A stretch of 41,015 nucleotides of DNA from Thermoplasmata archaeon (GTDB taxonomy: Archaea; Thermoplasmatota; Thermoplasmata; Thermoplasmatales; Thermoplasmataceae): NCBI GenBank assembly GCA_021802055.1, contig JAKAAY010000006.1, positions 35,340 through 76,354 of the forward strand, written 5' to 3'. Position numbers and translations under genes: made by a program. Positions 2,422-37,142 of the stretch are shown piece by piece. The notes beneath the pieces were generated by a model. That model did no database searches. It had not been told where the DNA came from and saw nothing but the letters and a program-made list of their open reading frames with translations. Numbering within the stretch: the first letter of the stretch is position 1; each line of letters opens with the position of its first letter.

Positions 2422-3386
2422 CCCAGATGAATATGGTACAGGCGATTAACCAGGCCCTCAGCCAGAACATGGAAAAGGACGATTCCGTTGTTGTTCTGGG
2501 AGAAGACGTGGGGGTGGACGGAGGAGTCTTCAGGGTCACGGATGGCCTGCTATCTAAATACGGCCCTGAGCGCGTGATCGACACGCCCCTGGTCGAACTT
2601 GGCATAATAGGAATGGGCATAGGGATGGCCCTCAACGGAATGCGCCCGGTGGCCGAGATCCAGTTTCAGGATTTCATTTACACCGCAATGGATCAGATCA
2701 TCAATCAGGCAGCAAAAATCCGTTACAGGTCGGGCGGCGAGTATACCGCACCAATAATAATCCGGACTCCGTATGGAGGGGGAATCAAAGGAGGCCTTTA
2801 CCACTCCCAGAGCGGAGAGACCTATTTTGTCCATACGGCAGGACTGGTAGTGGTTACCCCTTCAGGCCCATACGACGCAAAAGGGCTGCTAAATTCCGCA
2901 TTCAAATCTCAAGACCCCATAGTGTTTCTGGAACCAAAGAGGCTTTACAGATCTATAAAGGAGGAGGTTCCGGATGACATGTATATGGTACCTTTGGGAA
3001 AGGCGAAACTGCTCAACGAGGGTGACGATCTTTCCATTATAACATACGGGTCAATGGTTCCAACGGTCATTGACACCGTGAAGAAGAACAAGATCAGTGC
3101 AGACGTACTTGATCTGAGAACTTTGCTTCCACTGGACCTTGAGGCAATATTGAAAACAGTGGAGAAGACAGGCAGGGTGATTATCGTACATGAGGCTCCG
3201 AGGACTCTTGGAATGGGTGCAGAAATTTCAGCAGTCATTTCCGAGCGCAGGATAGATTACCTCCAGGCCCCGATCCTGAGGGTTACCGGACCTGATTCAC
3301 CGTTCCCGTACAGGCTGGAGGATTATTACATCCCGAACGAGAAGAGGATCATGAAGGCAGTATCCAAGATACTCGAGTACAGGTGA
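2418..3386 (+). CDS. 2-oxoacid dehydrogenase complex E1 beta subunit
   Basis: Partner of E1alpha; together they form the alpha2beta2 ThDP-dependent decarboxylase that acetylates or acylates the lipoyl domain of E2. The 322 residues show the transketolase pyrimidine-binding domain (LGEDVGVDGGVFRVTDGL, then DTPLVELGIIGMGIGMA and QFQDFIYTAMDQI) and the C-terminal transketolase domain (VDVLDLRTLLPLD-like segment, VIIVHEAPRTLGMGAEI). The GTG at 2418 overlaps the E1alpha stop by four bases; an in-frame ATG nine bases later (2427) is an alternative. Normal family length. Confidence 0.93.
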   Translation: MTQMNMVQAINQALSQNMEKDDSVVVLGEDVGVDGGVFRVTDGLLSKYGPERVIDTPLVELGIIGMGIGMALNGMRPVAEIQFQDFIYTAMDQIINQAAKIRYRSGGEYTAPIIIRTPYGGGIKGGLYHSQSGETYFVHTAGLVVVTPSGPYDAKGLLNSAFKSQDPIVFLEPKRLYRSIKEEVPDDMYMVPLGKAKLLNEGDDLSIITYGSMVPTVIDTVKKNKISADVLDLRTLLPLDLEAILKTVEKTGRVIIVHEAPRTLGMGAEISAVISERRIDYLQAPILRVTGPDSPFPYRLEDYYIPNEKRIMKAVSKILEYR

Positions 3387-3390
3387 TAAG

Positions 3391-4614
3391 ATGTTTGAGT
3401 TCAAGCTACCGGATATAGGAGAAGGAGTTGCGGAAGGAGAGATCGTTAAATGGCTGATCAAGGAGGGGGACACAATTTCTGCAGATCAGGAAATGGTGGA
3501 GGTCATGACAGACAAAGTTACTGTCAGGATACCGTCACCGGTCGCGGGAAAGGTAAAGACTCTTTTCTTCCCTGAAGGAAAAGTTATCAGGGTTGGGGAG
3601 AGCCTTGTCCTGATCGACGACGGCAAGGCAGAAACCTCTACAAACATAAGCACTACCGCGGCACAATCATCTGAAGCAGTTACACAGGAACCCAGCGCCC
3701 CAGCAGGGACAAAACCTGCGGAACATCCGCCCGCCGGGCGGATTATCGCATCTCCAGCCATAAGGAAGGCAGCACGGGACATGGGCATTGATCTGGAGCA
3801 GGTGAAGCCAAGCGGAGAGGGTGGGAGAATCCTTATGGAAGACCTTGAAAACTTCAAAAAGGCCGGCGTTTCCAAGGAGAAGGAGGTTGCCAGGACAACT
3901 TCAGAACCGCCAAAAGAGGCTCCAAAAGAGGCATCCACGCCACTCAAACCAGGTGATACACTGCTGGAACCAAGGGGACTCAGAAGGTTGATCTTTGAGA
4001 AGATGACCAAGTCAAAAGCAATAATGCCGCATTTCACCATAATTGAGAAGGTGAACATGTCAAACCTGAGGGAAACCAGGGAGGAGTTGAAATCAAGAGA
4101 CGCCTCAATTACGTTCACTCCCCTCTTTGTCAAGACCGTTGTGGTCGCTCTCAAGGATTTCCCGAAGTTCAATGCTGTTTACAATGAGCAGAGCAAGAAC
4201 TACACGGTAAAGAAATACTACAACGTGGGAATCGCAGTAGACACACCCGATGGACTTACGGTGGCAGTTGTCAGGGAAGCCGACAAGAAAAGTGTATTCG
4301 TCCTGTCGAAGGAGATTTCGGAACTTGCCTCAAAGGCGAGGGAGAACAAGCTGTCACTTGCAGAGGTGCAGGACTCCACGTTCACCATATCCAACGTGGG
4401 AACAATTGGAGGAGTGATGTCAACGCCAATCATCAACTACCCGGAAGTCGCAATCCTTGCCCTCCACAGGATGGAGATCAACGGTAAGGATGCCGAGATG
4501 CACATATCACTCTCCTGCGACCACAGACTCATCGACGGCGCTGACGCAGCAAGGTTCATATCGCGAGTCAAGGAACTGATGGAGAAGCCATCACTCATAT
4601 TTGTGCAGGACTGA
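3391..4614 (+). CDS. 2-oxoacid dehydrogenase complex E2, dihydrolipoyl acyltransferase
   Basis: Core of the complex; transfers the acyl group from lipoamide to CoA. In order: one lipoyl domain (residues 1 to about 78) with the lipoylated Lys42 in VMTDKVTV; an Ala/Pro-rich linker; a peripheral-subunit-binding domain (about 120-158, SPAIRKAARDMGIDL and GEGGRILMEDL); a second linker; and the catalytic domain (about 195-407) with the chloramphenicol-acetyltransferase-like active-site motif DHRLIDG. A single lipoyl domain is the economical arrangement seen in archaeal complexes. The ATG lies 4 bases after the E1beta stop. LipA and LipB, encoded at both ends of this operon, are the expected modifiers of Lys42. 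Confidence 0.95.
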   Translation: MFEFKLPDIGEGVAEGEIVKWLIKEGDTISADQEMVEVMTDKVTVRIPSPVAGKVKTLFFPEGKVIRVGESLVLIDDGKAETSTNISTTAAQSSEAVTQEPSAPAGTKPAEHPPAGRIIASPAIRKAARDMGIDLEQVKPSGEGGRILMEDLENFKKAGVSKEKEVARTTSEPPKEAPKEASTPLKPGDTLLEPRGLRRLIFEKMTKSKAIMPHFTIIEKVNMSNLRETREELKSRDASITFTPLFVKTVVVALKDFPKFNAVYNEQSKNYTVKKYYNVGIAVDTPDGLTVAVVREADKKSVFVLSKEISELASKARENKLSLAEVQDSTFTISNVGTIGGVMSTPIINYPEVAILALHRMEINGKDAEMHISLSCDHRLIDGADAARFISRVKELMEKPSLIFVQD

Positions 4615-4618
4615 TCCC

Positions 4619-5938
4619 ATGAAATATGATGCCATAGTGATTGGTGCAGGCCCCGGAGGTTATGCTACGGCAATTCGCATAGCACAGAAGGGGAAGAAGG
4701 TTCTGGTCGCAGAGAAGGACAGAGTGGGTGGTGAATGCCTGAATTACGGCTGCATCCCGTCGAAGGCCCTCATCGAACTTGCAAATTCGGTTTCTTATCT
4801 AAAGGACATGCCAGGCATGAAGATCAAGATGGACCCGGATTTCGAAGAGTGGCAAAAGTGGAAATGGTCCATGATAAACAAGCTCACAGGTGGCGTGGAG
4901 ACGCTATTCAAGGCATATGGCGTTGAGCTCAAAAGGGGCTCTGCGACCATTATTGACAGGAACCATGTCAGGATCGGGGAAGAGGAGTTTCAGTGCGAGA
5001 ACCTGGTGATTGCCACAGGGTCTGTTCCTGCGGCCATAACAAGTTTTGGCGATGTATGGTACAACAGAGACATCCTTGACTTCAAAAAGGTTCCGGAGAG
5101 TCTTCTGATCATTGGCGGAGGCTACATAGGCATCGAGCTTGGTACGGCCTTTGGCAAACTCGGCTCAAAGGTTACAATAGTTGAGATGATGGATGCAATT
5201 CTTCCAGGTGTGGAACGGGAACTGGTTACTCCTGTGGAAAGAAAGCTAAAATCGATGGGCGTGGAAATCAGAACCTCTGCCAAGGTCACTGAGGTCTCGA
5301 GAAACGGAAACTACGTGGTGAAACTCCAGGATGGAACTGAATACTCTGCAGAGAAGGTCCTTCTCACTGTGGGAAGAAGGCCAAATACCGAAGGGTTTGG
5401 CCTGGAGAACCTCAAACTTGAGATGAACGGGAGGTACATCAAAACAGACGACAGGAAGATGACAAGCATCAGTGGGGTTTACGCTGTGGGAGATGTCTCG
5501 GGCGAGCCCATGCTCGCTCACAAGGCCTATTACGACGCTGATGTTGCAGCAGACAATATCTGCGGGGAGGAGCGACATGTGGAATACAAGGCAATGCCAT
5601 TTGTGATTTACTCTGATCCCGAGATATCATATACGGGATCCAGGGGCGAGAAAGTGGCAGTATTTCCGGCTGCAGCAAACGGACGATCCCTGGGAATGAA
5701 CAATTCAATCGGTACCTACAGGGTATATTACGATTCTTCCGGGTACATAACGGGTGCAGGACTTGTTGCACCGCACTCCTCCGAGATGATCTCAGAAGTC
5801 TCGCTTGCAGTTGAGGCCGGCCTGATGGCAATGGACATTGGCCTGACAATACACCCGCACCCCACGATCTCAGAGGGGCTGCATGAAGCGGCCGAATCAT
5901 CCTATGGAAAGGCGCTGCACTTCAAATCTGGCCGCTGA
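4619..5938 (+). CDS. lpdA: Dihydrolipoamide dehydrogenase E3
   Basis: Flavoprotein that reoxidises dihydrolipoamide with NAD+. From the ATG at 4619 (439 residues): FAD-binding GAGPGG at 9-14, redox-active disulfide C40-x4-C45 (GECLNYGC), NAD-binding GGGYIGIELG, the second FAD motif YAVGDVSG, and the C-terminal HPHPTISE whose His-Glu pair is the catalytic dyad supplied to the partner subunit. A TTG seven codons upstream is possible, but it would overlap E2, while the ATG gives the family N-terminus. The 4-base gap after E2 shows it is dedicated to this complex. Confidence 0.95.
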   Translation: MKYDAIVIGAGPGGYATAIRIAQKGKKVLVAEKDRVGGECLNYGCIPSKALIELANSVSYLKDMPGMKIKMDPDFEEWQKWKWSMINKLTGGVETLFKAYGVELKRGSATIIDRNHVRIGEEEFQCENLVIATGSVPAAITSFGDVWYNRDILDFKKVPESLLIIGGGYIGIELGTAFGKLGSKVTIVEMMDAILPGVERELVTPVERKLKSMGVEIRTSAKVTEVSRNGNYVVKLQDGTEYSAEKVLLTVGRRPNTEGFGLENLKLEMNGRYIKTDDRKMTSISGVYAVGDVSGEPMLAHKAYYDADVAADNICGEERHVEYKAMPFVIYSDPEISYTGSRGEKVAVFPAAANGRSLGMNNSIGTYRVYYDSSGYITGAGLVAPHSSEMISEVSLAVEAGLMAMDIGLTIHPHPTISEGLHEAAESSYGKALHFKSGR

Positions 5939-6620
5939 TCTGGGCAGGATTTCCTATGATGAATGCTTGGAACTCCAGCACCGGCTGGTCAGTCTCAGGA
6001 GGACGGACCAGGTCGGGAATATCCTGCTTTTTCTCGAGCATGGTCCTGTGTACACCATAGGCCGTAAGGCAGACCCTGCGAACTACCCTGGAATCAACGT
6101 CACTAGAACGGAGAGAGGCGGTGACGTCACGTACCATGGACCTGGTCAGCTGGTTGTTTACGTGGTATTCAGGGTTGAGCGGGATGGAAGGATGGACGTC
6201 AGGAGATTTGTTTCCGACGTTTCACAGTCCTTTGTACAGGCCCTTAGGAGTTCTGGATTTGACGCAGAGGAAGGAAAGGAAGAGCCCGGTATCTGGATTA
6301 ACCATGGCGGCAGGAAGAAGGTAGGTTCAGTGGGAATGGCAATCGATCATGGTGTGAGCTACCATGGGGTCTCCCTTAACCTTACGGAGGAGACCCTGGA
6401 AAGATTCCGCAAGATCAGGCCCTGTGGCATGGACCCGTCAGTCATGTGGTACGTGGATGTACCGAGAACGGATATTATCGCAAAGCTTCTCGAGGAGCTC
6501 GGATCAAGGTTCGGAAAGTTCATCATGGTCAGCCGGTCGGAGCTGGAAATTCTATCAAATCTCCCTGTTGATGCTCCAGATCCTCTCGCTGATCCCAAGA
6601 CGGACGTTAGCCACAACTGA
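5883..6620 (+). CDS. lipB: Lipoate-protein octanoyltransferase LipB
   Basis: Transfers an octanoyl group to the E2 lipoyl lysine, the step before LipA. The 245 residues show the LipB motif RGGDVTYHGPGQLVVY (78-93), the conserved Lys146 region KKVGSVG, GVSYHGVSLNL, and PCG with Cys181, the acyl-thioester nucleophile; these separate it from lipoate ligase LplA, which lacks the cysteine. The start overlaps E3 by 56 bases (ATG 5883) or 35 bases (ATG 5904); the family core begins near residue 17, so either is possible. It closes the operon that lipA opens. Its 3' end overlaps the opposing adenosyltransferase gene by 66 bases. Confidence 0.93.
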   Translation: MKRPNHPMERRCTSNLAADLGRISYDECLELQHRLVSLRRTDQVGNILLFLEHGPVYTIGRKADPANYPGINVTRTERGGDVTYHGPGQLVVYVVFRVERDGRMDVRRFVSDVSQSFVQALRSSGFDAEEGKEEPGIWINHGGRKKVGSVGMAIDHGVSYHGVSLNLTEETLERFRKIRPCGMDPSVMWYVDVPRTDIIAKLLEELGSRFGKFIMVSRSELEILSNLPVDAPDPLADPKTDVSHN

Positions 6621-11014: not shown

Positions 11015-13015
11015 GTGGAAATCAGGAAAGTAACGGTTGTTGGCGCAGGCCTCATGGGACATGGAATTGCAGAAGTCTTCGCGTTGAACGGGTATGCGGT
11101 TACGCTGGAAGATGCGTTTGCCGAGGCCCTTAACAAGGCAAGAAAATCCATAGAGACAAGCGTGGACAGAATGATAAAATCCGGGAAGATCAAGCCGGAT
11201 GAGAGAGAAGAGATACTGGGCAGGCTTACATATTCCTCGGAGCTTGAGAAGGCTTCAGCAGATGCAGACCTTATCATAGAGGCTGTACCTGAAGTCATGG
11301 AACTGAAGAAGGAAGTTCTTTCAAAAATTTCCTCCTCATGCGGCCCGGACGCGATAATCGGAACGAACACCTCCAACTTCAGGATATCAGAGCTTGCAGG
11401 TTCTATAAAGGGCCAGGATAGATTCATAGGAATTCACTTCTTCAATCCTCCCGTGGTCCTGAAACTGGTGGAGGTGATAAAGGGGGAAGCGACCTCTGAC
11501 AAGGTCTTCGAGCAGATATTCGGGCTAATCAAGGAGATTGGGAAAGTACCCATCAGGGTGTTTAAGGACAGCCCTGGCTTTGTTGTGAACAGGATCAACG
11601 CGCCTGAAAGCCTGTTCTTCTGCCTTGTCATAGACAAGCAGATAGCCAAGCCCGAGGAAGTGGATCACTTTGCCAGGGCCAACGGGCTCCCCATGGGGCC
11701 ATATGAACTCATGGATTATGTCGGTATAGACACGGTGGTTCACTCCCTTGACTACTACAAGAACTCACTGTCACCTGATTACGGCAGGTGCCATGCATTC
11801 CATGACCTTTACAACAGGAGCGAGCTCGGACTGAAGACAGGCAGAGGCTTCTATGTGTGGAAGGACGGAAAAGCGCAGATTCCAGCAGCAGAACCAACCA
11901 CCAAACTGGATCTAATGGATGTACTGGCAGTAGAAATCAACGAAGCAGCGAAGATCGTTGAAGAGGGAATCGCACTTCCGGACGACATAGAGACCGGCGT
12001 CAAGCTGGGAATGAACCGTCCGTTCGGACCCATCTCAGTTGCATCCGGGCTCACCAATTCAGAAGTGCGATCAAAGATAAACAGCATATTTGAGAGAATG
12101 GGTCTCGAGGTCTTCAAGCCTGCATCGTCCATAGAGTCAGGAAAACTGAGAGAAATTTTCTCCATCAAAGGGTTCAAAGGTGAAGAGCAGGAATCAACCG
12201 TGGCAGAGAAGCAGGAAGCCCAGCCGGCACAGCCGGCAGGCGTATACGAAACCATTAAACTGACAAAGGAAGGAAAGGTTACTGTGCTTGAACTCAACAA
12301 CCCCAAACTTAACCTCATCAACGCCAGAGTTGTGGCAGACCTTGAAAGAGCAATAGATGAGGTCTCAAACGACCGGGAGACGGTAGTGGTTGTTATTAGA
12401 GGATCCAACGGCATATTCTCTGCCGGGGCAGAACTATCCCAGTTCTTCAGTTCACCTGCGGATTTTATGAACTTCTCAAGGCGTGGCCAGTCAGTCTTCA
12501 AGAAGATCCAGGAGAGCTCAAAGATATTCATTTCCCAGATGGAAGGATATGCACTGGGCGGTGGTTTTGAGCTCTCGCTTTCCTGCGATATACGATTCGC
12601 CACAGAAGACGTAAAAATCGGTTTTCCGGAACTTCAGAGGGGAATTCTCCCGGGTTGGACGGGCACGCAGCGACTTGCAAAGCTCATAGGCATGTCCAGG
12701 GCAAGTTACCTCATTCTCACATCGGAGAGGATCGAAGGGAAACAGGCTCTTGACCTTGGCATAGTCTCGAGGGTATATTCCAGGGACTCAATCGGGAATG
12801 AGACCATGGAGTTTGCAAAGAAACTCTCTGAGGATGTTGCCCCAGTGGCAGCATATCTTGCAAAAATCTCCCTGAACAGGGGGTCTGAAACGTCCATGGA
12901 CAACGGATTGTGGACCGAGGCGATCTCCATGGGGCTGCTGTACGGGACAGAGGACATAAAGGAAGGGGTCAGCGCATTCCTTCAGAAGAGGAAGCCAGAA
13001 TTTAAAGGGAAATAA
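11015..13015 (+). CDS. 3-hydroxyacyl-CoA dehydrogenase / enoyl-CoA hydratase fusion
   Basis: Bifunctional enzyme that hydrates enoyl-CoA and oxidises the (S)-3-hydroxyacyl-CoA with NAD+. N-terminal part (about 1-375): NAD-binding GAGLMGHGIAEVF (11-23), HFFNPP with catalytic His141, SPGFVVNRI, and two C-terminal dehydrogenase domains (GPYELMDYVG, GLKTGRGFY). A Gln/Pro/Ala linker (about 392-405) leads to the crotonase domain (about 407-666) with GGGFEL (Glu519) and FPEL (Glu539), the two catalytic glutamates at the usual 20-residue spacing. The dehydrogenase-first order is the archaeal one (as in Metallosphaera), the reverse of bacterial FadB. GTG start, 5 bases after the SCP2 gene. Confidence 0.94.
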   Translation: MEIRKVTVVGAGLMGHGIAEVFALNGYAVTLEDAFAEALNKARKSIETSVDRMIKSGKIKPDEREEILGRLTYSSELEKASADADLIIEAVPEVMELKKEVLSKISSSCGPDAIIGTNTSNFRISELAGSIKGQDRFIGIHFFNPPVVLKLVEVIKGEATSDKVFEQIFGLIKEIGKVPIRVFKDSPGFVVNRINAPESLFFCLVIDKQIAKPEEVDHFARANGLPMGPYELMDYVGIDTVVHSLDYYKNSLSPDYGRCHAFHDLYNRSELGLKTGRGFYVWKDGKAQIPAAEPTTKLDLMDVLAVEINEAAKIVEEGIALPDDIETGVKLGMNRPFGPISVASGLTNSEVRSKINSIFERMGLEVFKPASSIESGKLREIFSIKGFKGEEQESTVAEKQEAQPAQPAGVYETIKLTKEGKVTVLELNNPKLNLINARVVADLERAIDEVSNDRETVVVVIRGSNGIFSAGAELSQFFSSPADFMNFSRRGQSVFKKIQESSKIFISQMEGYALGGGFELSLSCDIRFATEDVKIGFPELQRGILPGWTGTQRLAKLIGMSRASYLILTSERIEGKQALDLGIVSRVYSRDSIGNETMEFAKKLSEDVAPVAAYLAKISLNRGSETSMDNGLWTEAISMGLLYGTEDIKEGVSAFLQKRKPEFKGK

Positions 13016-25272: not shown

Positions 25273-25659
25273 TTATATATCTGGCTCATCAAGATTCCGG
25301 AATTTCAGCAATGAATGGCATTCCTCAACAGGTGATCTGGTGAGGGGTCCAACGAATACCGCATCTAATCCAGGGCCTGCAAGTTTTGTCATGATCTTCT
25401 GCTCATAGGCCATTGCCAGACACGCAGAAGGCTTAAGACCCGCCTTCAACCCTGCGTCAAATTTAGAATGAGCATCAGGATCGTTCTCAAGAAGAAGAGT
25501 CCTGGCAAGGCCAAAGTACACCGCCTGAATTTCGTCGAGCCATCTGTTGCGCATGGGGTTTATCACATATGTCATCCAGGATGGCGCTTTCTCCTCTGCC
25601 TCAGACCACGATGATATACCTCCAAAAGACTTATCTTGCATGGGTGCACATGTTCTCAT
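25273..25659 (-). CDS. Unknown 128-aa protein downstream of etfA
   Basis: Not recognised. Soluble, alpha-helical looking (WLDEIQAVYFGLARTLLLEN, KAGLKPSACLAMAYEQKIMTKLAG). Start is uncertain: the ATG at 25659 or the one at 25641 (MQDKSFGG). It begins 42 bases after the etfA stop on the same strand and could be the last gene of the etfBA transcript. No motif ties it to electron transfer. Confidence 0.55.
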   Translation of the reverse strand: MRTCAPMQDKSFGGISSWSEAEEKAPSWMTYVINPMRNRWLDEIQAVYFGLARTLLLENDPDAHSKFDAGLKAGLKPSACLAMAYEQKIMTKLAGPGLDAVFVGPLTRSPVEECHSLLKFRNLDEPDI

Positions 25660-27520: not shown

Positions 27521-29542
27521 ATGTTGTATCTGTTCTCGGCGCTCCTGCTGATATCCATTCTCGTAGCTGTCGGTCTTTTCCTGTACTCAATTTATGAAAA
27601 CGCATGGAATATGTTCAGGATTCCTGTCAAAAGATTATCCATGCCCATTGACGTCCTGCGCAGGATTTATCTCGTGGTGCGCAACGTGTTCCTGCAGGGA
27701 AAGCTCCTGAAGGAAAGGGGAGGCGGAGTGATGCATTTCCTCTTTTTCTGGGGGTTTATCACCTTTGCAGCTTACTCGTCCTACTTCTTCCTCAAGGGAC
27801 TGGACCCTTCCATTGGATTTTTCGTCAGCGGAACACTGGAGTATGCGATATTCTTCACTGTTGATATATTTGCTGCGGTGCTTCTGGCAGACGTTGTGTA
27901 TTCGGTCTACAGAAGATGGATAAGGAAGATCCCGAGATACCAGGGCTATAACGGCTTCGAGGCATCGCTGATTCTTATCCTGATTGCCGGGCTGATGATA
28001 ACGTACTACATGCTCGCTGTCGCAAGACTGCAGGGCATTTCTGCTGGAATACCGGGATCGATCCTCGAGACGCTGCCTGCCTGGGCGTCACCCATAAGTT
28101 CGTTTCTGGCTTCGAGTCTTCCTAGGATACCCTCATCAATGGGACCGACTTTCTACTGGGTAACCTGGAGCGTCCATGCGTTCATATTTCTCGCTTTTCT
28201 TGTGTACATCCCCAGATCAAAGCATCTCCATCTGGTTGCGGCCCCTCTCAACGTGCTTCTTGCAGACAGCAAGCCCATAGGGGAGCTTACGAAAATAGAC
28301 TTCGAGAAGGATACAAGGTTTGGGGCTACCGACATTCGGGATTTCTCATGGAAAGACTACCTGGACTTCTATGCCTGCACGGAGTGCGGAAGATGCACGG
28401 CAAATTGCCCGGCTAACATGACCGGGAAAACTCTGTCACCAAGGGACGTAATATGGGACCTCAGGGAAACGGTAATGGCCCAGGGGAGGGCTCTACGGCA
28501 TGGCCAGGGTGAAGCTGACACAGTCCTGACCACGGTGATCGGCAATCCGATAAGGGAAAACGACCTGTGGTCCTGCACGACCTGCATGGCCTGTGTGGAA
28601 CAGTGCCCCGTTATGATCGATCACGTTGACAAGATCGTCGAAATGCGCAGATCAATGGTGCTGAATCAGGGGAAAGCCCCGCAGGAGGCGCTAGCAATGT
28701 TCAGCAACATCGAGTCCTACTTCAGCCCGTACGCAAACGATCCGGCCAGCAGGGCTGACTGGGCACAGGGCATAGAGATAGTTGATCTTTCAAAGACTCC
28801 GGAGACAACCTATGAATACCTGTACTGGGTCGGATGCTTATCCAGCTATGATCGGAGGAACCAGGAGATTGCAAGATCAACAGTCAAACTCCTTAAGGCT
28901 GCGGGTGTGAATTTCGCCATTCTGGGCGCTGAGGAGAAATGCACAGGCGATCCTGCCAGAAGAGCGGGAAACGAGTATCTTGCGCAGAATATGATTACCC
29001 AGAATGTGGAAACTCTGAAGAAACACAGGGTACAGAAGGTAATAGCAACATGTCCACACTGCTTCAACTCGCTCAAGAATGACTACAGGAAGTTCGGGAT
29101 AGAACTGGAGGTATACCACCATACCCAGTTCATTGATTCTCTCATACGTGACGGGAAGCTCAAAATCCAAGCTGCAGATGGGGACAAGGACGAGGTTTTC
29201 ACATACCACGATCCATGCTATCTTGGCAGATTCAACAGGGAGTTTGATGCTCCAAGGAGTCTCATTGGGACGTTCGCAACGGACTTCAGGGAAATGAAAA
29301 TGAACAAGACCAAGAGTTTCTGCTGCGGCGCAGGAGGCGGAAGGCTCTTCATGAACGAAACCGAGGGGACAAAGATATCGCACAAACGCATTGAAATGGC
29401 CGCAGAGGTCGATGCTTCAACAGTCGTGACTGCCTGCCCCTTCTGCATGACCATGCTTGACGATGCCAGGAAGGTCACAAACCGCGAGGAGAACATGGAC
29501 ATAAAGGACGTATCCGAACTCCTGGCAAGCAGGATCAAGTAA
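27521..29542 (+). CDS. Membrane FeS ETF:quinone oxidoreductase (EMO/FadF-like)
   Basis: Predicted to take electrons from reduced ETF and pass them to membrane quinone. 673 residues: N-terminal NarI-like heme b domain with about six helices (1 to about 245); two 4Fe-4S motifs, C286/C289/C292/C296 (CTECGRCTANCP) and C352/C355/C358/C362 (CTTCMACVEQCP); then two CCG-type cysteine-rich domains as in HdrB/HdrD (EEKCTGDPARR with TCPHCFNSL, and HDPCYLG with FCCGAGGG and ACPFCMTML), which hold the noncubane clusters. This architecture matches bacterial FadF/YwjF and the ETF:menaquinone oxidoreductases. Divergent from etfBA and followed by beta-oxidation genes, which strongly supports the role. Confidence 0.88.
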   Translation: MLYLFSALLLISILVAVGLFLYSIYENAWNMFRIPVKRLSMPIDVLRRIYLVVRNVFLQGKLLKERGGGVMHFLFFWGFITFAAYSSYFFLKGLDPSIGFFVSGTLEYAIFFTVDIFAAVLLADVVYSVYRRWIRKIPRYQGYNGFEASLILILIAGLMITYYMLAVARLQGISAGIPGSILETLPAWASPISSFLASSLPRIPSSMGPTFYWVTWSVHAFIFLAFLVYIPRSKHLHLVAAPLNVLLADSKPIGELTKIDFEKDTRFGATDIRDFSWKDYLDFYACTECGRCTANCPANMTGKTLSPRDVIWDLRETVMAQGRALRHGQGEADTVLTTVIGNPIRENDLWSCTTCMACVEQCPVMIDHVDKIVEMRRSMVLNQGKAPQEALAMFSNIESYFSPYANDPASRADWAQGIEIVDLSKTPETTYEYLYWVGCLSSYDRRNQEIARSTVKLLKAAGVNFAILGAEEKCTGDPARRAGNEYLAQNMITQNVETLKKHRVQKVIATCPHCFNSLKNDYRKFGIELEVYHHTQFIDSLIRDGKLKIQAADGDKDEVFTYHDPCYLGRFNREFDAPRSLIGTFATDFREMKMNKTKSFCCGAGGGRLFMNETEGTKISHKRIEMAAEVDASTVVTACPFCMTMLDDARKVTNREENMDIKDVSELLASRIK

Positions 29543-29691: not shown

Positions 29692-30885
29692 ATGGAGAAT
29701 CAAAGGGAAGCGTATATAGTGGATTTCAGGAGAACGCCATTTTCCCGATCACGGCCCACCGAACCGGAAAGGGACGCCTTCAACTCGCTTAGGATGGATG
29801 AAGCCCTTGGTAAGTTATATAGAAAACTCGTGGAACAATCATCCGTGAAACCGACGGAGATCGGCGATGCCATTACGGGGTGTGCTCTTCAGGCAGACGA
29901 GAACTGGACATACGGAGGAAAACATCCACAGCTGATTTCAGGGTTGCCCGTTACCGTGCCAGCAATGGCCATAGATCGTGCCTGCTCATCCTCGCTCAAC
30001 GCCATGGGAATAGGCTTCATGGAAATCAGGACAGGTTTCTCGGACATGGTACTTGCAGGAGGCATGGAGCATATGACGCACGTCCCGCTAAACAACAACC
30101 CCCACATCAAGCCCAACATCAAGCTTCTGGTAAGGCCGGAGTTTGCAAAACTTGACATGAACACAGGTTATTCAATGGGGCTCACAGCCGAAAAACTCGC
30201 GGACCTCAAGGGTATATCGCGCGAGGAAATGGACAGGTTTTCTCACAGAAGCCACCAGCTTGCATCAGAGGCTCTCGATAGTGGATACTTCAAGGGGGAA
30301 ATAGAGCCGGTTCAGGTTGAACGCGACAACAAAGAGGTTACCATAGATTCGGATCTCAGCATACGCAAGGGGGCCAAACTTGAGGAAATGTCAAACCTGA
30401 GGCCCGCCTTCAAGAGTGACGGTAAGATAACCGCTGGGAACTCCTCTCCACTGAATGCTGGTGCATCGGCGGTACTCCTGGCATCAGGAGAAAAGGTCAA
30501 CGAATACGGGCTGAAGCCGCTCGCTAAGATCATATCCATAGGGTGGGCTGCAGTGGAACCATCGATCATGGGAGAAGGGCCGGTTCCGGCAAGCAAGAAG
30601 GCGCTCAGAAGTGCCGGTCTTACCGCAGACGACATCGATCTGTGGGAGATCAACGAGGCCTTTGCAGTGGTTGTCCTGAATGCCATGAAGGAGCTGGGAA
30701 TACCGGAGGACAAGGTTAATGTTCACGGGGGCGCCATCTCCATTGGCCATCCCCTTGGAGCATCAGGCGCAAGGCTTGCAGGTACCCTTGCAAGATCCAT
30801 GAAAGAAAAGGGGAAGGAGCGGGGAATGGCCACGCTTTGTGTAGGAGGAGGCCAGGGTTACTCCATGATACTTGAGAGGGTGTAA
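29692..30885 (+). CDS. Acetyl-CoA acyltransferase (3-ketoacyl-CoA thiolase)
   Basis: Cleaves 3-ketoacyl-CoA with CoA to acetyl-CoA and a shortened acyl-CoA. 397 residues with all catalytic parts: Cys98 in DRACSSSLNAM, NEAFA, His353 in GGAISIGHPLGASGAR, and Cys383 in LCVGGGQG. This is the degradative (FadA/AtoB) type, not the archaeal acetyl-CoA acetyltransferase/SCP-x type that pairs with HMG-CoA synthase and a DUF35 protein. First gene of a three-gene operon with the two acyl-CoA dehydrogenase-like proteins (gaps of 2 bases). Confidence 0.94.
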   Translation: MENQREAYIVDFRRTPFSRSRPTEPERDAFNSLRMDEALGKLYRKLVEQSSVKPTEIGDAITGCALQADENWTYGGKHPQLISGLPVTVPAMAIDRACSSSLNAMGIGFMEIRTGFSDMVLAGGMEHMTHVPLNNNPHIKPNIKLLVRPEFAKLDMNTGYSMGLTAEKLADLKGISREEMDRFSHRSHQLASEALDSGYFKGEIEPVQVERDNKEVTIDSDLSIRKGAKLEEMSNLRPAFKSDGKITAGNSSPLNAGASAVLLASGEKVNEYGLKPLAKIISIGWAAVEPSIMGEGPVPASKKALRSAGLTADDIDLWEINEAFAVVVLNAMKELGIPEDKVNVHGGAISIGHPLGASGARLAGTLARSMKEKGKERGMATLCVGGGQGYSMILERV

Positions 30886-30887
30886 AA

Positions 30888-31994
30888 ATGGATTTCGACT
30901 TTACAGAGGAACAGGTTAAATTCAGGGAGAAGGCAAGGGAGTTCGCGGAAAGGGAGTTTTCTTCAGAGGTCGCGAGAAAGTTTGACCGTGAGGAGAAATA
31001 TCCCGAGGAGATAAGGAAAAAGGCCTATGCTGAGCATGTTATAGACTATAGCGACCCCTGGAAGGTGCTAATTGCCATAGAGGAACTTTGCAGGCAGGAT
31101 GCAGGTCTCGGCATATCTGCCACGGTACCGTATTTCGGGGAAGAAGTGATAATGCTGTTCGGCAGCGACCACCTGAAGGAGAAATACCTGCAGCCAGTGA
31201 ACGAAGGGAAATCACTGATGGGACTAGCAGTTACGGAACCCGGAGGAGGTAGCGATGTTGCTGGCCTGAAGACGACCGCGAGGAAGGAAGGCAAGAACTA
31301 CATAATAAACGGGGCCAAGATGTTCATAACGAACGGATCCATCGCAGACTTCTTTGTCATGCTTGTAAGGACCTCAGAGGAAGAGAAGAGACACCACGGG
31401 CTCAGCGCCTTCGTAGTCGAGTCGCGTTTCCCAGGATTCAAGGCAAACAAACTCAAGGGAAAACTTGGAGTAAGAGCCACCGACACGGCTGAACTTGAAC
31501 TCAACAATGTGGTAGTACCGGAGGAAAACCTCATTGGGGAGGAAGGAAAAGGGTTCTACTATATCATGACGTTCTTCAACATCAGCAGGATATTCGTGGC
31601 CGGCCAGGGAATCGGGATAGCACAGGGCGCCTTTGACAGGGCCCTGTCCATTCTCAGGAGGAAGGGAAAGGCTTACTCCGAGAAGGAGGAAATACAGTTT
31701 GCAGTGGCGGAAATGGCCACGCAAATACAGGCCGCCAGGCTGATTACCTATAAGGCAGCGTCCTATCTTTTCAACTTCAAGCCTGATCCCACCATTACAA
31801 GTATGGCAAAAAAGTACGCGGCAGAAACCGCGGTATTCGTGGCAGAGAAGGCACTGGAGGTCACGGGCGTTGACGGCATCTCTTCCGATCTTGAGAGATT
31901 CTACCGGGATGCAAAGATACTGGAGATCTGGGAAGGTACAAGCGAGGTGGAGAAATTGATTATTTCAAGAAACATCCTGAAGGAGGCGCAGTAA
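30888..31994 (+). CDS. Acyl-CoA dehydrogenase (catalytic subunit)
   Basis: FAD enzyme that makes trans-2-enoyl-CoA and gives electrons to ETF. 368 residues, slightly short at the N-terminal helical domain. Has the substrate/FAD motif VTEPGGGSDVAGL, the beta-domain block NYIINGAKMFITNGSIADFF, and catalytic Glu349 in IWEGTSE. In place of the usual CMQ.HGG.GY-like block the helix reads EKALEVTGVDGISSDLERFYRDAKI, so the FAD-contacting loop is divergent here, while the next gene keeps it. This complementarity suggests that the two proteins form one heteromeric enzyme. Confidence 0.93.
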   Translation: MDFDFTEEQVKFREKAREFAEREFSSEVARKFDREEKYPEEIRKKAYAEHVIDYSDPWKVLIAIEELCRQDAGLGISATVPYFGEEVIMLFGSDHLKEKYLQPVNEGKSLMGLAVTEPGGGSDVAGLKTTARKEGKNYIINGAKMFITNGSIADFFVMLVRTSEEEKRHHGLSAFVVESRFPGFKANKLKGKLGVRATDTAELELNNVVVPEENLIGEEGKGFYYIMTFFNISRIFVAGQGIGIAQGAFDRALSILRRKGKAYSEKEEIQFAVAEMATQIQAARLITYKAASYLFNFKPDPTITSMAKKYAAETAVFVAEKALEVTGVDGISSDLERFYRDAKILEIWEGTSEVEKLIISRNILKEAQ

Positions 31995-31996
31995 CC

Positions 31997-33031
31997 ATGG
32001 ATCAGGACAGCTACCGGATGCTCAGGGAGAACGTGGATGAATTCTGTGCCAGAAACGTGGAACCTGTATCCCTGAAAATGGAGCGGGAAGGAATGGCATC
32101 GGACCTGGCAAAAAAGTCAGGGACCCAGGGGTTCAATGCTGCCATAGCAGCACAGTCTAATGGCGGGTCCGCCCTGGACAGGGAGTCCTACCTCACAATA
32201 CTGGAGCGTGCAGCGAGGTCCTCCCCATCTTTTGCAATGTTCCTCCTGATGCAGAACTCAATAGCCGGCAGGATTCTCGAAGCGGCCGGGAAGACGGGGG
32301 AGATAGGGGAGATCGCATCGGGAGCAAAAACAGCCACAGTGGAATTTCTTAGCCTCAACGAGTCTTCTTCCGCTGAATACAGCATCAATGTGAGCAATGG
32401 AAAGGCAACAGGAAAACTCAGGAATGTCATCTTTCCGTCTGCCGATCTGATCGTATTCCTGCATCAGGACTCCTTATACCTTGCCAGGGGCAGCGATGGA
32501 ACAGAGCCGCTCCCTGTGCTTGGGTTCAGGGGACTTGGCCTCGGGGATGTGGTTTTCAGGGACAGGCCGGTGGAAAAGCTATCAGAAAACGGAGGTGCAA
32601 AACTCATCATGGATGCTCTGAAGAACGCGGGAAGAGAGGTATCTGCCGTGGCCCTGGGAATAACAGGCAGATCCGTCGATATGGCCGTTGAATATTCAAG
32701 GGTCAGGAAGACCTTTGGGAGGCCCCTTAAGGATTATGAGCCCGTGGCCTTCCAGCTGGCTGGCTTCAAGGCCCAGGAAGAGGAATTGAGATCCATGATA
32801 TTCTTCTCCTCAGTGCAGGATGGGTACATAAAGCCACTTGCCACTGACCTGGCCAGGAGGGCTACCAAGATCGCCCTTCAGGTCCATGGGGGCTATGGAT
32901 ATCTGGAAGATTTCGGGGTAGAGAAGTTTTACAGGGACTCCATGACGCTGTCCATCTACTTTGGCCCTTCCAGAAGTGACATGAGAAATCTTTCCAGAGA
33001 GGTGTACGGGGAGGAATCCGGAGTAATCTGA
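31997..33031 (+). CDS. Degenerate acyl-CoA dehydrogenase paralogue, probable non-catalytic subunit
   Basis: 344 residues, acyl-CoA dehydrogenase fold: VEYSRVRKTFGRPLKDYEPVAFQLAG and ALQVHGGYGYLEDFGVEKFYRDS are clear. The catalytic glutamate is gone: the IYEGTSE motif reads IYFGPSRSD, with Phe322 in the Glu position, and the alternative Glu site of isovaleryl-/long-chain enzymes is not filled either. The TEPxxGSD motif of the middle domain is also missing. It keeps the QxHGGxGY FAD-contact motif that the upstream subunit lacks. Starts 2 bases after the active paralogue, so they are made together. In mycobacteria such pairs form alpha2beta2 dehydrogenases; the same is inferred here. Confidence 0.85.
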   Translation: MDQDSYRMLRENVDEFCARNVEPVSLKMEREGMASDLAKKSGTQGFNAAIAAQSNGGSALDRESYLTILERAARSSPSFAMFLLMQNSIAGRILEAAGKTGEIGEIASGAKTATVEFLSLNESSSAEYSINVSNGKATGKLRNVIFPSADLIVFLHQDSLYLARGSDGTEPLPVLGFRGLGLGDVVFRDRPVEKLSENGGAKLIMDALKNAGREVSAVALGITGRSVDMAVEYSRVRKTFGRPLKDYEPVAFQLAGFKAQEEELRSMIFFSSVQDGYIKPLATDLARRATKIALQVHGGYGYLEDFGVEKFYRDSMTLSIYFGPSRSDMRNLSREVYGEESGVI

Positions 33032-34411
33032 TTACTGCGGAACCCCTCCTTCCATTGCCCGGTGAAACTCATCTTCAGTGATTTTACCTGTTGCCAGGGC
33101 AAGCTCCTTAATGGATTTCCCGCCGTGAAGGGCTTCCTGCACTATTTTTGCAACAGTGTCATAACCCAGATATGGATTGAGAAGGGCGGCGGATCCAAAG
33201 CTTCTGGAGAGGTGTTCCCTGCAGCTTTCTCTATCTGCGCCAAGGCCGTCAATGAGCTTTTCCCTGAACATTCTCACCCCTGAGGTAAGTATATCCATGG
33301 CCCTGTTCAGTTCGTAGTCGATGTTCGGCATCATAACATTGAGTTCAAGCTGACCTGCCTGGACAGAAATATTAACGGCCTGTTGGGCTCCAACTATGGA
33401 ATGGCATATCATGTTCATCGCCTCCGCTATGGATGGATTGATCTTTCCAGGCATTATGGATGAGCCCTGCTGAACAGCGGGTATGGTGATCTCATGGATC
33501 CCGGCTCCCGGGCCGGAGTAGAGAAGTCGGACATCATTGGATATCTTATTGAAATCCAGTGCGAGGTTTACGACGGCCCCCATGACCCTTGAGAAATCGG
33601 ACTGGAATTCCATTATGCCGGGAAGATTGCTGCTGGCCCTGAATGGCTCTCCTGTTACACCTGCGATCTCCTTCACCACGTTGTCCCTGTAACCCGGGGC
33701 GGTGTTGATCCCGGTGCCAACAGCGGTACCGCCGATGTTGAGATCCAAAAGGAAATCCAGCTGTTTTTCCAGGTCCCTGATCCCCCGGTCCACGGTGTAT
33801 GCATATGCGGACATCTCCATTCCAAGCGTCACAGGGGCAGCATCCTGCAGGTGGGTCCTTCCCGGTTTAACCACAGATGAAAATTCGATCGCCTTTTTAT
33901 CAAGAGATTCCTTGATCTTCCTCAGTTCCACCAGGAGTCTTCGGGCTTTCCTTACCGACGTGATCCTGATCATGGTGGGAAAGACGTCATTGGTGCTCTG
34001 GCTCATGTTGACATGATCGTTGGGATGTATGAACTCGTACGATCCCTTTTTCCTGCCGCCGATCTCCAGAGCGACATTTGCTATGACTTCGTTGGCATTC
34101 ATGTTGAAAGAGGTTCCTGCTCCAGCCTGGAAAACATCCAGGACAAAGTTGTCGTGGAACTCCCCGGCGATGATCCTGTCACACGCCCTCACCACCAGAT
34201 CCTTCTTTTCTGCGGGAAGCTTTTTCCCGGTAAAGTTCGCAATTGCGGCAGATCTCTTGATCTGCGCCATTGAAACTACGTGGTCTGAGTCCGGGCTGAT
34301 TCCTGAAATCCTGAAATTCTCAACAGCCCTTTGTGTGTTGATTCCATAGTAGACGGAGTCGTCAATCTCCACTTTCCCTATGACGTCCTGCTCAGTTCGC
34401 TTCATATTCAT
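33032..34411 (-). CDS. Aspartate ammonia-lyase / class II fumarase family enzyme
   Basis: Interconverts fumarate with aspartate (plus ammonia) or with malate. 459 residues: HPNDHVNMSQSTNDVFPT, VKPGRTHLQDA, and the signature GSSIMPGKINPSIAE with the catalytic Ser loop. FQAGAGTSFNMNANEVIANVALE (fumarases usually have QTGSGTQ.NMN) and AGQLELNVMMP lean towards aspartase, as in Bacillus AspB, but the two activities are hard to separate by eye. Starts at the ATG at 34411 or M3 at 34405; a TATA-like GTTTTAGAAC (minus strand, about 34428-34438) fits a leaderless start. Converges with the acyl-CoA dehydrogenase operon with no spacer. Confidence 0.85.
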   Translation of the reverse strand: MNMKRTEQDVIGKVEIDDSVYYGINTQRAVENFRISGISPDSDHVVSMAQIKRSAAIANFTGKKLPAEKKDLVVRACDRIIAGEFHDNFVLDVFQAGAGTSFNMNANEVIANVALEIGGRKKGSYEFIHPNDHVNMSQSTNDVFPTMIRITSVRKARRLLVELRKIKESLDKKAIEFSSVVKPGRTHLQDAAPVTLGMEMSAYAYTVDRGIRDLEKQLDFLLDLNIGGTAVGTGINTAPGYRDNVVKEIAGVTGEPFRASSNLPGIMEFQSDFSRVMGAVVNLALDFNKISNDVRLLYSGPGAGIHEITIPAVQQGSSIMPGKINPSIAEAMNMICHSIVGAQQAVNISVQAGQLELNVMMPNIDYELNRAMDILTSGVRMFREKLIDGLGADRESCREHLSRSFGSAALLNPYLGYDTVAKIVQEALHGGKSIKELALATGKITEDEFHRAMEGGVPQ

Positions 34412-34488
34412 ACATCTCGTGGGGGTTCTAAAACAGATCGCCTCATTTCATGCGGAGTGGTGAAAACGGCTATAATGGGTCAATTTTG

Positions 34489-34502
34489 GATATTTATTAA
34501 TA
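34489..34502 (+). promoter_or_regulatory. TATA box of the korAB operon
   Basis: GGATATTTATTAAT, centred about 60 bases before the ATG at 34556. Transcription would start near 34520, leaving a leader of about 36 bases that contains the GTGAT Shine-Dalgarno at 34547-34551. One of the few leadered genes here. Confidence 0.5.
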
Positions 34503-34555
34503 CGTTCACAAGATACTGGCTTTCAGGCATCGTTTGGAAACAGACAGTGATTATC

Positions 34556-36292
34556 ATGAGCAGAAATGAAGTTATTTTTAGGGTGGCCGGAGCTGCAGGC
34601 GATGGAGTCCAGTCTGCCGGCACAATCATAACAAAGACACTGGCAAGGAGTGGCCTATATGCTTTCACGTATAACTACTACCAGGACATAGTCAGGGGCG
34701 GACAGAGCTGGTATCAGGTGAGAGGATCTGACGTACCGGTCACGAATCAGGGGGACGGCCTTGACATCCTCATCGCCCTCAATCAGGACGGTCTGGAGAG
34801 ACACACGAACCCGGAGATCAACGAGGGGGGCTCATCTCCGCTCTCTGGCATTGCCATCTATGACCAGTCCATAACGGTGTTCGAAAAGAGAAACGTGAAT
34901 TATGTACCCATGCCCCTTTCGGAAATTGCCGCAAGGTACAGCAAGAACCCGCTTCTGAAGAATACGGTAGCCATTGGTGCTGCATTCGCGAGTATAGGTA
35001 CTGACTTTGAGGTACTCGCTGGCGTGATATCAGACACCTTCGGAAAGAAGGGTGCAGTGGCGGAGCAGAACGTGAATGCGGCCAGGGAAGGCTATGATCT
35101 GTATCTCAAGAACTACAAGCCCATTGATGTGAAACTCAAAACCTCGAAAAGAAGACTATACGTCATAAGCGGAGGCCATGCCATAGGACTTGGCGCAGTT
35201 AAGGCCGGATGCAAGATGTACATTGGCTATCCCATGACGCCGGCATCTTCCTGCCTGGAGTTCATGACCAACCACTCCCAGAAATTTCAGATATTTGTGA
35301 AGCTGCCGGAAGACGAGATCTCGGCCATAAACATGGCAATCGGCGCCAACTATGCCGGCGTGCGGGCAATGACCGCCTCTTCTGGAGGAGGTTTCAGCCT
35401 CATGGTGGAAGCTCTCGGAATGGCAGCGATGCTGGAAGTACCACTTGTCATTTACGAGGCGCAGAGGGCGGGGCCATCCACTGGCCTTCCAACCAAGACT
35501 GAACAGGCCGATCTCAACCTCGTCATTGGTGCATCACAGGGAGACTTTCCGAGGATCATCCTTGCGCCAAGAAACGTGAAGGAGTGCACCACACTAACTG
35601 CCGAGGCATTCAACCTCGCAGAGAGATTCCAGACGCCAGTTATCGTGATGTCAGATCTATTCCTCGCGGAAAATTTCCAGACGGTGGAGGACCTCAACTT
35701 CGATTTCCGGATTGACAGAGGCTACCTGGCCAGCGAGAATGCTGAAGACTACAGGAGGTACCTCATAACGGAAAACGGAATTTCACCAAGATCCTTCCCA
35801 GGCATGAAGGGGCTCATGCACAACGAGGACTCAGATGAACACAACGAGTATGGAGACGTGGTGAGCGACGCCGTCACGGATCCAAAGGACAGGATCAAGA
35901 TGATGGAGAAGCGCATGAGGAAGATGGAGACCTATCTTAAGGAGATGCCACCAACGGATACATACAGAGCTGAGGATGCGGAATATCTCGTGTTCCAGTG
36001 GGGCTCAACGCAGGGGGCGGTGGAGGAGGCCATAGACATCCTAAGAGAAAAGGGGATCAAGGTCGGCGCAGTGGAACTGAGCAGGATATTCCCGATGAAC
36101 AGGGATATTTCCACCATCATAAGGTCGAGGAAAAAACTCATTGTCGTGGAAAACAACTTCAGTGGCCAACTGAACCGGCTTTTACGCTCAGAATTCCTCT
36201 GCAAGACAGAACTTGTGAGGAAATTCGACGGTGAAGCATTCTATCCAGGCGCACTGGCTCAAGAGCTCGAAACGATCGTAAGGAGGAAGTGA
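34556..36292 (+). CDS. korA: 2-oxoacid:ferredoxin oxidoreductase, fused gamma-alpha subunit
   Basis: Oxidatively decarboxylates 2-oxoacids to acyl-CoA with ferredoxin as acceptor. 578 residues from the ATG at 34556: gamma domain first (VIFRVAGAAGDGVQSAGTI, YQDIVRGGQSWYQVR), then the alpha domain with GYPMTPASS (224-232, the YPITP motif that contacts ThDP and the substrate carboxylate) and a C-terminal domain ending near VVENNFSGQL. This gamma-alpha fusion is the arrangement of Sulfolobus 2-oxoacid:ferredoxin oxidoreductase. The reading frame stays open upstream, but the family N-terminus and the Shine-Dalgarno place the start here. One base separates it from korB. Confidence 0.92.
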   Translation: MSRNEVIFRVAGAAGDGVQSAGTIITKTLARSGLYAFTYNYYQDIVRGGQSWYQVRGSDVPVTNQGDGLDILIALNQDGLERHTNPEINEGGSSPLSGIAIYDQSITVFEKRNVNYVPMPLSEIAARYSKNPLLKNTVAIGAAFASIGTDFEVLAGVISDTFGKKGAVAEQNVNAAREGYDLYLKNYKPIDVKLKTSKRRLYVISGGHAIGLGAVKAGCKMYIGYPMTPASSCLEFMTNHSQKFQIFVKLPEDEISAINMAIGANYAGVRAMTASSGGGFSLMVEALGMAAMLEVPLVIYEAQRAGPSTGLPTKTEQADLNLVIGASQGDFPRIILAPRNVKECTTLTAEAFNLAERFQTPVIVMSDLFLAENFQTVEDLNFDFRIDRGYLASENAEDYRRYLITENGISPRSFPGMKGLMHNEDSDEHNEYGDVVSDAVTDPKDRIKMMEKRMRKMETYLKEMPPTDTYRAEDAEYLVFQWGSTQGAVEEAIDILREKGIKVGAVELSRIFPMNRDISTIIRSRKKLIVVENNFSGQLNRLLRSEFLCKTELVRKFDGEAFYPGALAQELETIVRRK

Positions 36293-36293
36293 A

Positions 36294-37142
36294 ATGGTAA
36301 GCGTCAATGATTTCAATGGAAGAGTTAAGCCAGACTGGTGTCCGGCATGTGGGAACTTTGCACAGCTTAGTGCCATAAAATCCGTTCTGTCGGATCTTGG
36401 AGTGGAATCCCATAACACCGCAGTCATTTCAGGAATAGGATGCTCCAGCAACCTTCCGGAATTCATCAAAGCGTACGGGTTCCACGGGCTGCATGGCAGA
36501 CTGCTGCCCGTGGCATCCGCCGTCAAGTGGGCGAACCCAAAGCTCACGGTGATAGCATACGGAGGAGATGGCGACGGATTCTTCGAAGGAACGCAGCACT
36601 TTTTCCATACCGCCAAGAGAAACGTGGACATAACCTACATCGTGTCGGATAACCAGGTCTTTGGTCTAACCACCGGACAGGCTTCACCTACAGCAGAAAT
36701 AGGATTTGTGTCAAAGTCCACGCCTGACGGGAACATAGAGAGACCCATCAACCCACTTGCATTTGCACTTGCTGCTGGGGCGACCTATGTCGCCAGAGGA
36801 TTCTCCGGTGATCCGAAGCATCTCTCTGAACTGATCAAGGGAGCCATACAGCATAAAGGATTCTCTTTTGTGGACGTCTTCAGCCCGTGTGTCACCTTCA
36901 ACAAGATCAATACGTACGATTATTTCAGGAAGAAGGTTTACAAGTATGAACCCGAGGACCCGTCCAACTATGAATCGGCTTATAAAAAGGTGCTGGAGGC
37001 TGGTGAAAAGCTCCCAATTGGCGTATTTTATGTTTCAAACCAGAAGCGGTACGAGGAGATGGATCCTGTATGGTCAGCAGGACCCATAATCGATCAGGCG
37101 ATCCACGTGGTGACCGAGGAAGACCTCGAGGAATTCCTGTAG
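36294..37142 (+). CDS. korB: 2-oxoacid:ferredoxin oxidoreductase beta subunit
   Basis: Carries ThDP and one 4Fe-4S cluster; 282 residues. Cluster ligands are Cys16 and Cys19 (WCPACG), Cys50 (GIGCSS) and a C-terminal Cys in FSPCVTFN. The ThDP/Mg motif is GGDGDGFFEGTQHF to SDNQVFGLTTGQASPT. No separate ferredoxin-like delta subunit is encoded next to it, as in the two-subunit archaeal enzymes. Broad 2-oxoacid specificity (2-oxoglutarate, pyruvate) is usual in this group; the particular substrate is not readable. Confidence 0.93.
   Translation: MVSVNDFNGRVKPDWCPACGNFAQLSAIKSVLSDLGVESHNTAVISGIGCSSNLPEFIKAYGFHGLHGRLLPVASAVKWANPKLTVIAYGGDGDGFFEGTQHFFHTAKRNVDITYIVSDNQVFGLTTGQASPTAEIGFVSKSTPDGNIERPINPLAFALAAGATYVARGFSGDPKHLSELIKGAIQHKGFSFVDVFSPCVTFNKINTYDYFRKKVYKYEPEDPSNYESAYKKVLEAGEKLPIGVFYVSNQKRYEEMDPVWSAGPIIDQAIHVVTEEDLEEFL

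Follow-up and report, generated by a model that had tools for sequence, protein, structure and literature searches.

Most known heteromeric acyl-CoA dehydrogenases (ACADs) come from steroid catabolism in bacteria. In ordinary members of the family such as MCAD, Gln, Arg and Gly residues of a neighbouring subunit contact the pyrophosphate of FAD. In the alpha2beta2 ChsE enzymes the alpha subunit binds the isoalloxazine ring and the substrate and carries the catalytic Glu, and the beta subunit binds the ADP-ribose part of FAD (PMC11153573, PMC8399759). CasC of Rhodococcus jostii consists of two fused ACAD domains, one with the Glu and the other serving FAD binding (PMC8399759). No archaeal heteromeric ACAD was found in the literature searched. 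Here we describe two adjacent ACAD-fold genes, P1 and P2, from an acid-loving archaeon of the class Thermoplasmata, located in a contig stretch of 41,015 nucleotides (the window). The distribution of their motifs indicates that they very probably encode an obligate heteromeric ACAD with a composite FAD site.

Organization and motifs of the gene pair

The pair and the translation signal within it are as follows.

30888..31994, + strand: P1, proposed alpha (catalytic) subunit, 368 aa, ACAD fold, Glu349 (WEGTSE)
31997..33031, + strand: P2, proposed beta subunit, 344 aa, ACAD fold, without the catalytic Glu
31982..31986, + strand: GGAGG, Shine-Dalgarno-like sequence within the 3′ end of P1, 10 bases 5′ of the P2 ATG

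A preliminary description of this DNA had reported two ACAD-fold reading frames separated by 2 bases, the first retaining Glu349 and TEPGGGSD, the second with Phe in place of Glu, without TEPxxGSD and with QVHGGYGY. These features are all borne out: both reading frames are present and match Pfam ACAD domains, 2 bases lie between the P1 stop and the P2 ATG, and the motifs can be read directly in P1 (TEPGGGSD, FITNG and WEGTSE) and in P2 (VRKTFG/RKTFGRP, QVHGGYGY, and Phe at the Glu position in IYFGPS), the latter having neither TEPxxGSD nor ITNG. The further claim that P1 has lost QxHGGxGY holds with one refinement: the Gln and the second Gly are gone, and the first and third Gly of the loop mostly remain. 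The equivalent positions in P1 read E-V-T-G-V-D-G, and the RxxFG element, not noted in that description, is missing as well. Pfam recognizes the N-terminal, middle and C-terminal ACAD domains in P1 and the N- and C-terminal domains in P2. In the P2 sequence no middle, flavin-side domain can be recognized, yet the AlphaFold model has a beta domain in that place. Other ACADs, and P2 with them, have a G-x-P-E-x-Y-G-G-x-G loop in the N-terminal domain, at which the P1 proteins are shorter by about 14 residues (around residues 40-58); this shortening might enlarge the substrate pocket or prevent a clash with P2.

Because the GGAGG sits within the end of P1, just ahead of the P2 start, coupled translation of the two genes is suggested. 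A single frameshifted gene was considered as an explanation for the adjacent frames and rejected, as these have separate starts and stops, a separate Shine-Dalgarno-like site precedes P2, and the products are different paralogues.

Division of the FAD-site motifs across orthologues

To compare the two halves of the FAD site, 48 P1 and 49 P2 orthologues from several families of the class were placed on the frame of a solved ACAD. The flavin-ring side, comprising Thr of TEP, Ser of GSD, Thr/Ser of ITNG, the catalytic Glu and the Gly that follows it, is complete in all 48 P1 sequences. The catalytic Glu occurs in none of the 49 P2 sequences, where its position is taken by Phe (22), Leu (12), Met (9), Ile (3), Ser (2) or Gly (1). 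The ADP side has the opposite distribution. In P2 the Arg and Phe of RxxF and the GGxG are each present in 49 of 49 and the Gln in 48 of 49; in P1 the Arg is found in 5 of 48, the Phe, the Gln and the second Gly in none, and the Gln position is occupied by Glu in 47 of 48. The RxxFG stretch of P1 varies freely and contains insertions and deletions, and the invariant residues of P2 cluster on the ADP motifs, with a near-invariant DFGVEKFYRD.

The complementary loss proposed from the single locus is thus invariant across the clade. Neither P1 nor P2 combines both FAD-site halves with the Glu, as a homotetrameric short-chain ACAD would. The split is not a matter of chance, as it is constant in the 48 P1 and 49 P2 sequences while a canonical ACAD of the same genome (L002) carries both halves. 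With the flavin-ring side in P1 and the ADP side in P2, the division corresponds at the level of motifs to that between ChsE alpha and beta. Two other readings of P2 were discarded in the course of this comparison: a pseudogene is ruled out by the invariant ADP motifs, and a catalytic Glu of the isovaleryl-/long-chain ACAD type by the site table, in which that alternative position is empty in P2, and likewise in P1.

Predicted structures

Modelled alone with AlphaFold, P2 adopts an ordinary ACAD fold (pLDDT 88.6, pTM 0.90) that Foldseek aligns to solved ACADs with a TM score of about 0.84; no steroid heteromer appears among the 50 best Foldseek matches. The model is weakest at residues 301-305, directly after HGGY, which fits a loop needing a partner and proves nothing. 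A read-through fusion of P1 and P2 from a related pair (L060) gave folded halves (pLDDT 81, pTM 0.51) whose mutual arrangement was not fixed, the construct having no linker and a thin P1 alignment, and Foldseek matched this model as one ACAD unit only.

Conservation of the pair in Thermoplasmata

The preliminary description had called for a survey of Thermoplasmata and named P2 homologues occurring without P1 as evidence against a heteromer. In a sample of 400 genomes of the class we found 86 places for P2 and 87 for P1, counting as P2 family those sequences above 230 profile bits; ordinary full-length ACADs score below 200 bits and were left uncounted. P2 lies directly behind P1 on the same strand and within 50 bases in 83 of the 86 places, and with incomplete copies included P1 is directly upstream in 85 of 86, the remaining P2 being cut by a contig end. 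The three exceptions to the strict arrangement are a P1 directly upstream of P2 and truncated by the contig start (G288), a P2 whose frame is broken into two overlapping ORFs behind an intact P1 (G075, L107 5744-6756), and a P2 fragment at a contig end (G300). The frame break may be a sequencing error or a real loss. These being the only exceptions, no P2 without P1 was seen among the 86 places in the 400 genomes, and the co-occurrence and adjacency looked for are both found. The P2 family occurs in only some families of the class and is absent from the sampled genomes of one family (f2) of the same order; one genome (G043) has a second complete pair. A Cuniculiplasma metagenome-assembled genome is among the carriers, and carriers of the pair can probably be obtained in culture.

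P1 without P2 was found at contig ends in two genomes (G049 and G214) and as one real orphan. The latter is a second P1-type paralogue (L103 3382-4515) in a 98% complete genome (G198); it is 44% identical, shows the same ADP-side losses, has no P2 alongside, and adjoins genes for hydroxyacyl-CoA dehydrogenase, CoA ligase and enoyl-CoA hydratase. Given this orphan, two P1 proteins may use the same P2, or P1 may sometimes do without it.

A tree of 55 rows, with the plasmid loci L111-L113 as outgroups, places all P1 in a single clade and all P2 in another (100/100 for each), and the branching orders inside the two resemble each other. Distances among P1 and among P2 sequences correlate with r = 0.84 over 48 pairs, a value to which shared species history contributes in part, and P2 evolves faster, with a mean distance of 0.62 vs 0.36. 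This faster rate, together with the orphan paralogue and the fact that P1 retains its entire catalytic half along with two loop glycines out of three, could be taken to mean that P1 is a self-sufficient homo-oligomeric ACAD with altered binding of the FAD ADP part, and that P2 is a decayed or regulatory paralogue with, for example, an ETF-docking or chaperone-like role. However, the universal conservation of Arg, Phe and GGxG and the near-invariant decapeptide indicate that P2 is not decaying. In P1 the change from Gln to Glu puts an acidic residue at the expected place of the FAD pyrophosphate, and the RxxFG stretch is freely variable, with insertions and deletions. We therefore consider a self-sufficient P1 quite unlikely and favour the obligate heteromer.

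Relationship to other acyl-CoA dehydrogenases

The nearest solved relatives of P1 are the short-chain ACADs 5lnx, 4l1f and 5ol2 (E about 1e-66 to 1e-64). As a single sequence P2 matches the same enzymes more weakly and mostly in the C-terminal domain; as a profile it matches over its full length, with CarC (6fah, 161 bits) and the MmgC-type 5lnx (152 bits) as the best solved hits. Among solved chains, short-chain ACADs thus rank first, and the steroid ACAD clade (FadE26-29, IpdE1-E2, Scd) does not provide the closest kin.

Could the pair nevertheless descend from the FadE26-29/ChsE/IpdE steroid ACADs through lateral transfer from bacteria? The two-gene layout and the division of labour are the same. 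Against this, the P2 profile reaches only 71 bits with the steroid subunit 6wy8 and does not include 4x28 in its best 60 matches, the 55 matches of the P1 profile at E <= 1e-40 include no solved steroid heteromer, and the IpdE2 model scores 19.7 bits vs a cut-off of 450. No steroid gene cluster was found near P1 and P2, and neither family was found outside Thermoplasmata; a tblastn search of plasmids returned generic ACADs only, and the inspected loci L111-L113 are not obvious heteromers. Descent from the steroid enzymes is accordingly very unlikely. Since homotetrameric short-chain ACADs score far higher with either profile than the solved steroid heteromers do, we think it rather likely that the pair originated independently of the bacterial ones.

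Metabolic context and proposed electron route

The genes around the pair that bear on acyl-CoA oxidation are listed here.

29692..30885, + strand: thiolase (acetyl-CoA C-acetyltransferase), scoring above the NF005033 cut-off, separated from P1 by 2 bases
27521..29542, + strand: EtfD-like membrane Fe-S protein with two CCG domains, two [4Fe-4S] motifs and some four hydrophobic helices
26592..27359, - strand: EtfB, electron transfer flavoprotein beta, divergent from thiolase-P1-P2
25702..26595, - strand: EtfA, electron transfer flavoprotein alpha
11015..13015, + strand: 3-hydroxyacyl-CoA dehydrogenase fused to enoyl-CoA hydratase, covering the remaining beta-oxidation steps

In related loci the thiolase precedes P1 wherever the sequence extends to it, and EtfB-EtfA are usually found upstream in divergent orientation. 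With thiolase, EtfAB, the EtfD-like protein and the fused hydratase/dehydrogenase, the window therefore holds a nearly complete acyl-CoA oxidation set. In mycobacteria EtfD connects ETF to menaquinone. The EtfD-like protein has the two CCG domains, two [4Fe-4S] motifs and transmembrane helices of the EtfD type, the helices being counted by hydropathy. Its best solved match (E = 8.7e-115) is 9ojn, deposited as an ‘iron-sulfur-binding reductase’ of 1042 aa, a code given in the paper on mycobacterial EtfD (PMC13083937). Relative to that protein the archaeal one is shorter (673 vs 1042 aa) and shows four vs five hydrophobic helices by simple hydropathy. Close copies (58-86% identity) exist in many relatives, and others have only matches of about 34-39%.

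A heteromer working in reverse, as an enoyl-CoA reductase with EtfAB in the manner of the acryloyl-, caffeyl- and butyryl-CoA dehydrogenase/Etf systems, would agree with the adjacent EtfAB, with Bcd and CarC among the solved relatives, and with the best NCBIfam model for P1, the acryloyl-CoA reductase AcrC (294 bits). That score is, however, far from the AcrC cut-off of 640 bits, and oxidation is the direction suggested by the EtfD-like reductase, the thiolase and the hydratase/3-hydroxyacyl-CoA dehydrogenase that the window also encodes. Thermoplasmatales from acid mine drainage (AMD) are reported to carry and express beta-oxidation genes in which the roles of the ACADs were not resolved, and aerobic fatty acid oxidation has been inferred for them (PMC3750248). 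We regard the reductive direction as unlikely; the reaction likely runs in the direction of beta-oxidation.

Several other genes of the window belong to central metabolism. On the + strand, 34331-37142 encodes the alpha and beta subunits of a 2-oxoacid:ferredoxin oxidoreductase adjoining a gene of the fumarase/aspartase lyase family, and 561-6620 holds lipoyl synthase, 2-oxoacid dehydrogenase E1 alpha, E1 beta, E2 and E3 and a lipoate ligase-like gene in a row, so that an archaeal 2-oxoacid dehydrogenase complex is encoded in full together with the genes for its lipoylation. As both the complex and the ferredoxin oxidoreductase are encoded, the two types of 2-oxoacid oxidation occur together in one window. 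Beyond EtfA, a 128-aa ORF (25273-25659, - strand) has no Pfam or NCBIfam match.

Discussion

In the enzyme that we propose, P1 would serve as the alpha subunit, binding acyl-CoA and the isoalloxazine ring and supplying Glu349. P2, as the beta subunit, would have no active site of its own and would hold the ADP part of FAD across the dimer interface through Arg237, Phe240, Gln295 and Gly298-Gly301. By analogy with the ChsE enzymes the assembly is probably an alpha2beta2 tetramer, which would contain two FADs in two composite sites. The product would be a 2-enoyl-CoA, passed on to the fused hydratase/3-hydroxyacyl-CoA dehydrogenase and then to the adjacent thiolase, and electrons would travel from P1/P2 through EtfAB and the EtfD-like membrane Fe-S protein to the quinone pool. 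A short- to medium-chain or branched acyl-CoA is our guess for the substrate. The origin of such an enzyme would lie in two short-chain ACAD paralogues within Thermoplasmata, each of which lost one half of the FAD site. Overall we lean toward a split-site ACAD that arose in archaea among these short-chain enzymes, in which opposite losses made two paralogues mutually dependent for ordinary acyl-CoA oxidation rather than for steroids; in some genomes one beta may serve two alphas.

If true, this would be a second, apparently independent origin of a heteromeric ACAD, in archaea and in the company of thiolase, ETF and an EtfD-like reductase, and it would show that homomers can become obligate heteromers repeatedly by complementary loss of the halves of a shared cofactor site. 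Archaeal beta-oxidation, in which it is difficult to assign ACADs by annotation (PMC3750248), would gain a defined first enzyme. A practical warning follows: either gene, annotated as ‘acyl-CoA dehydrogenase’ and assayed singly, would probably fail.

The closest described systems compare with the pair as follows. Like ChsE4-ChsE5 (FadE26-FadE27) and ChsE1-ChsE2 (FadE28-FadE29) of M. tuberculosis, P1 and P2 are adjacent ACAD-fold genes with the Glu in only one and the motifs for the two sides of FAD divided between them. Unlike the ChsE enzymes they are archaeal, stand nearer to homotetrameric short-chain ACADs, and lie in a thiolase/ETF beta-oxidation setting with no steroid cluster. The likeness to the mycobacterial alpha2beta2 enzymes drawn in the preliminary description therefore stands for the division of labour; as regards a shared family, the sequence ranking favours an independent origin instead. 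CasC also places the Glu on one ACAD unit and the FAD-binding role on the other; it does so in one chain with the catalytic domain C-terminal, whereas P1 and P2 are two genes with the catalytic one first. The homotetrameric short-chain ACADs (MmgC 5lnx, 4l1f, 5ol2 and CarC 6fah) share the fold and are the nearest solved relatives of both subunits, but hold in each subunit both halves of the FAD site that P1 and P2 divide.
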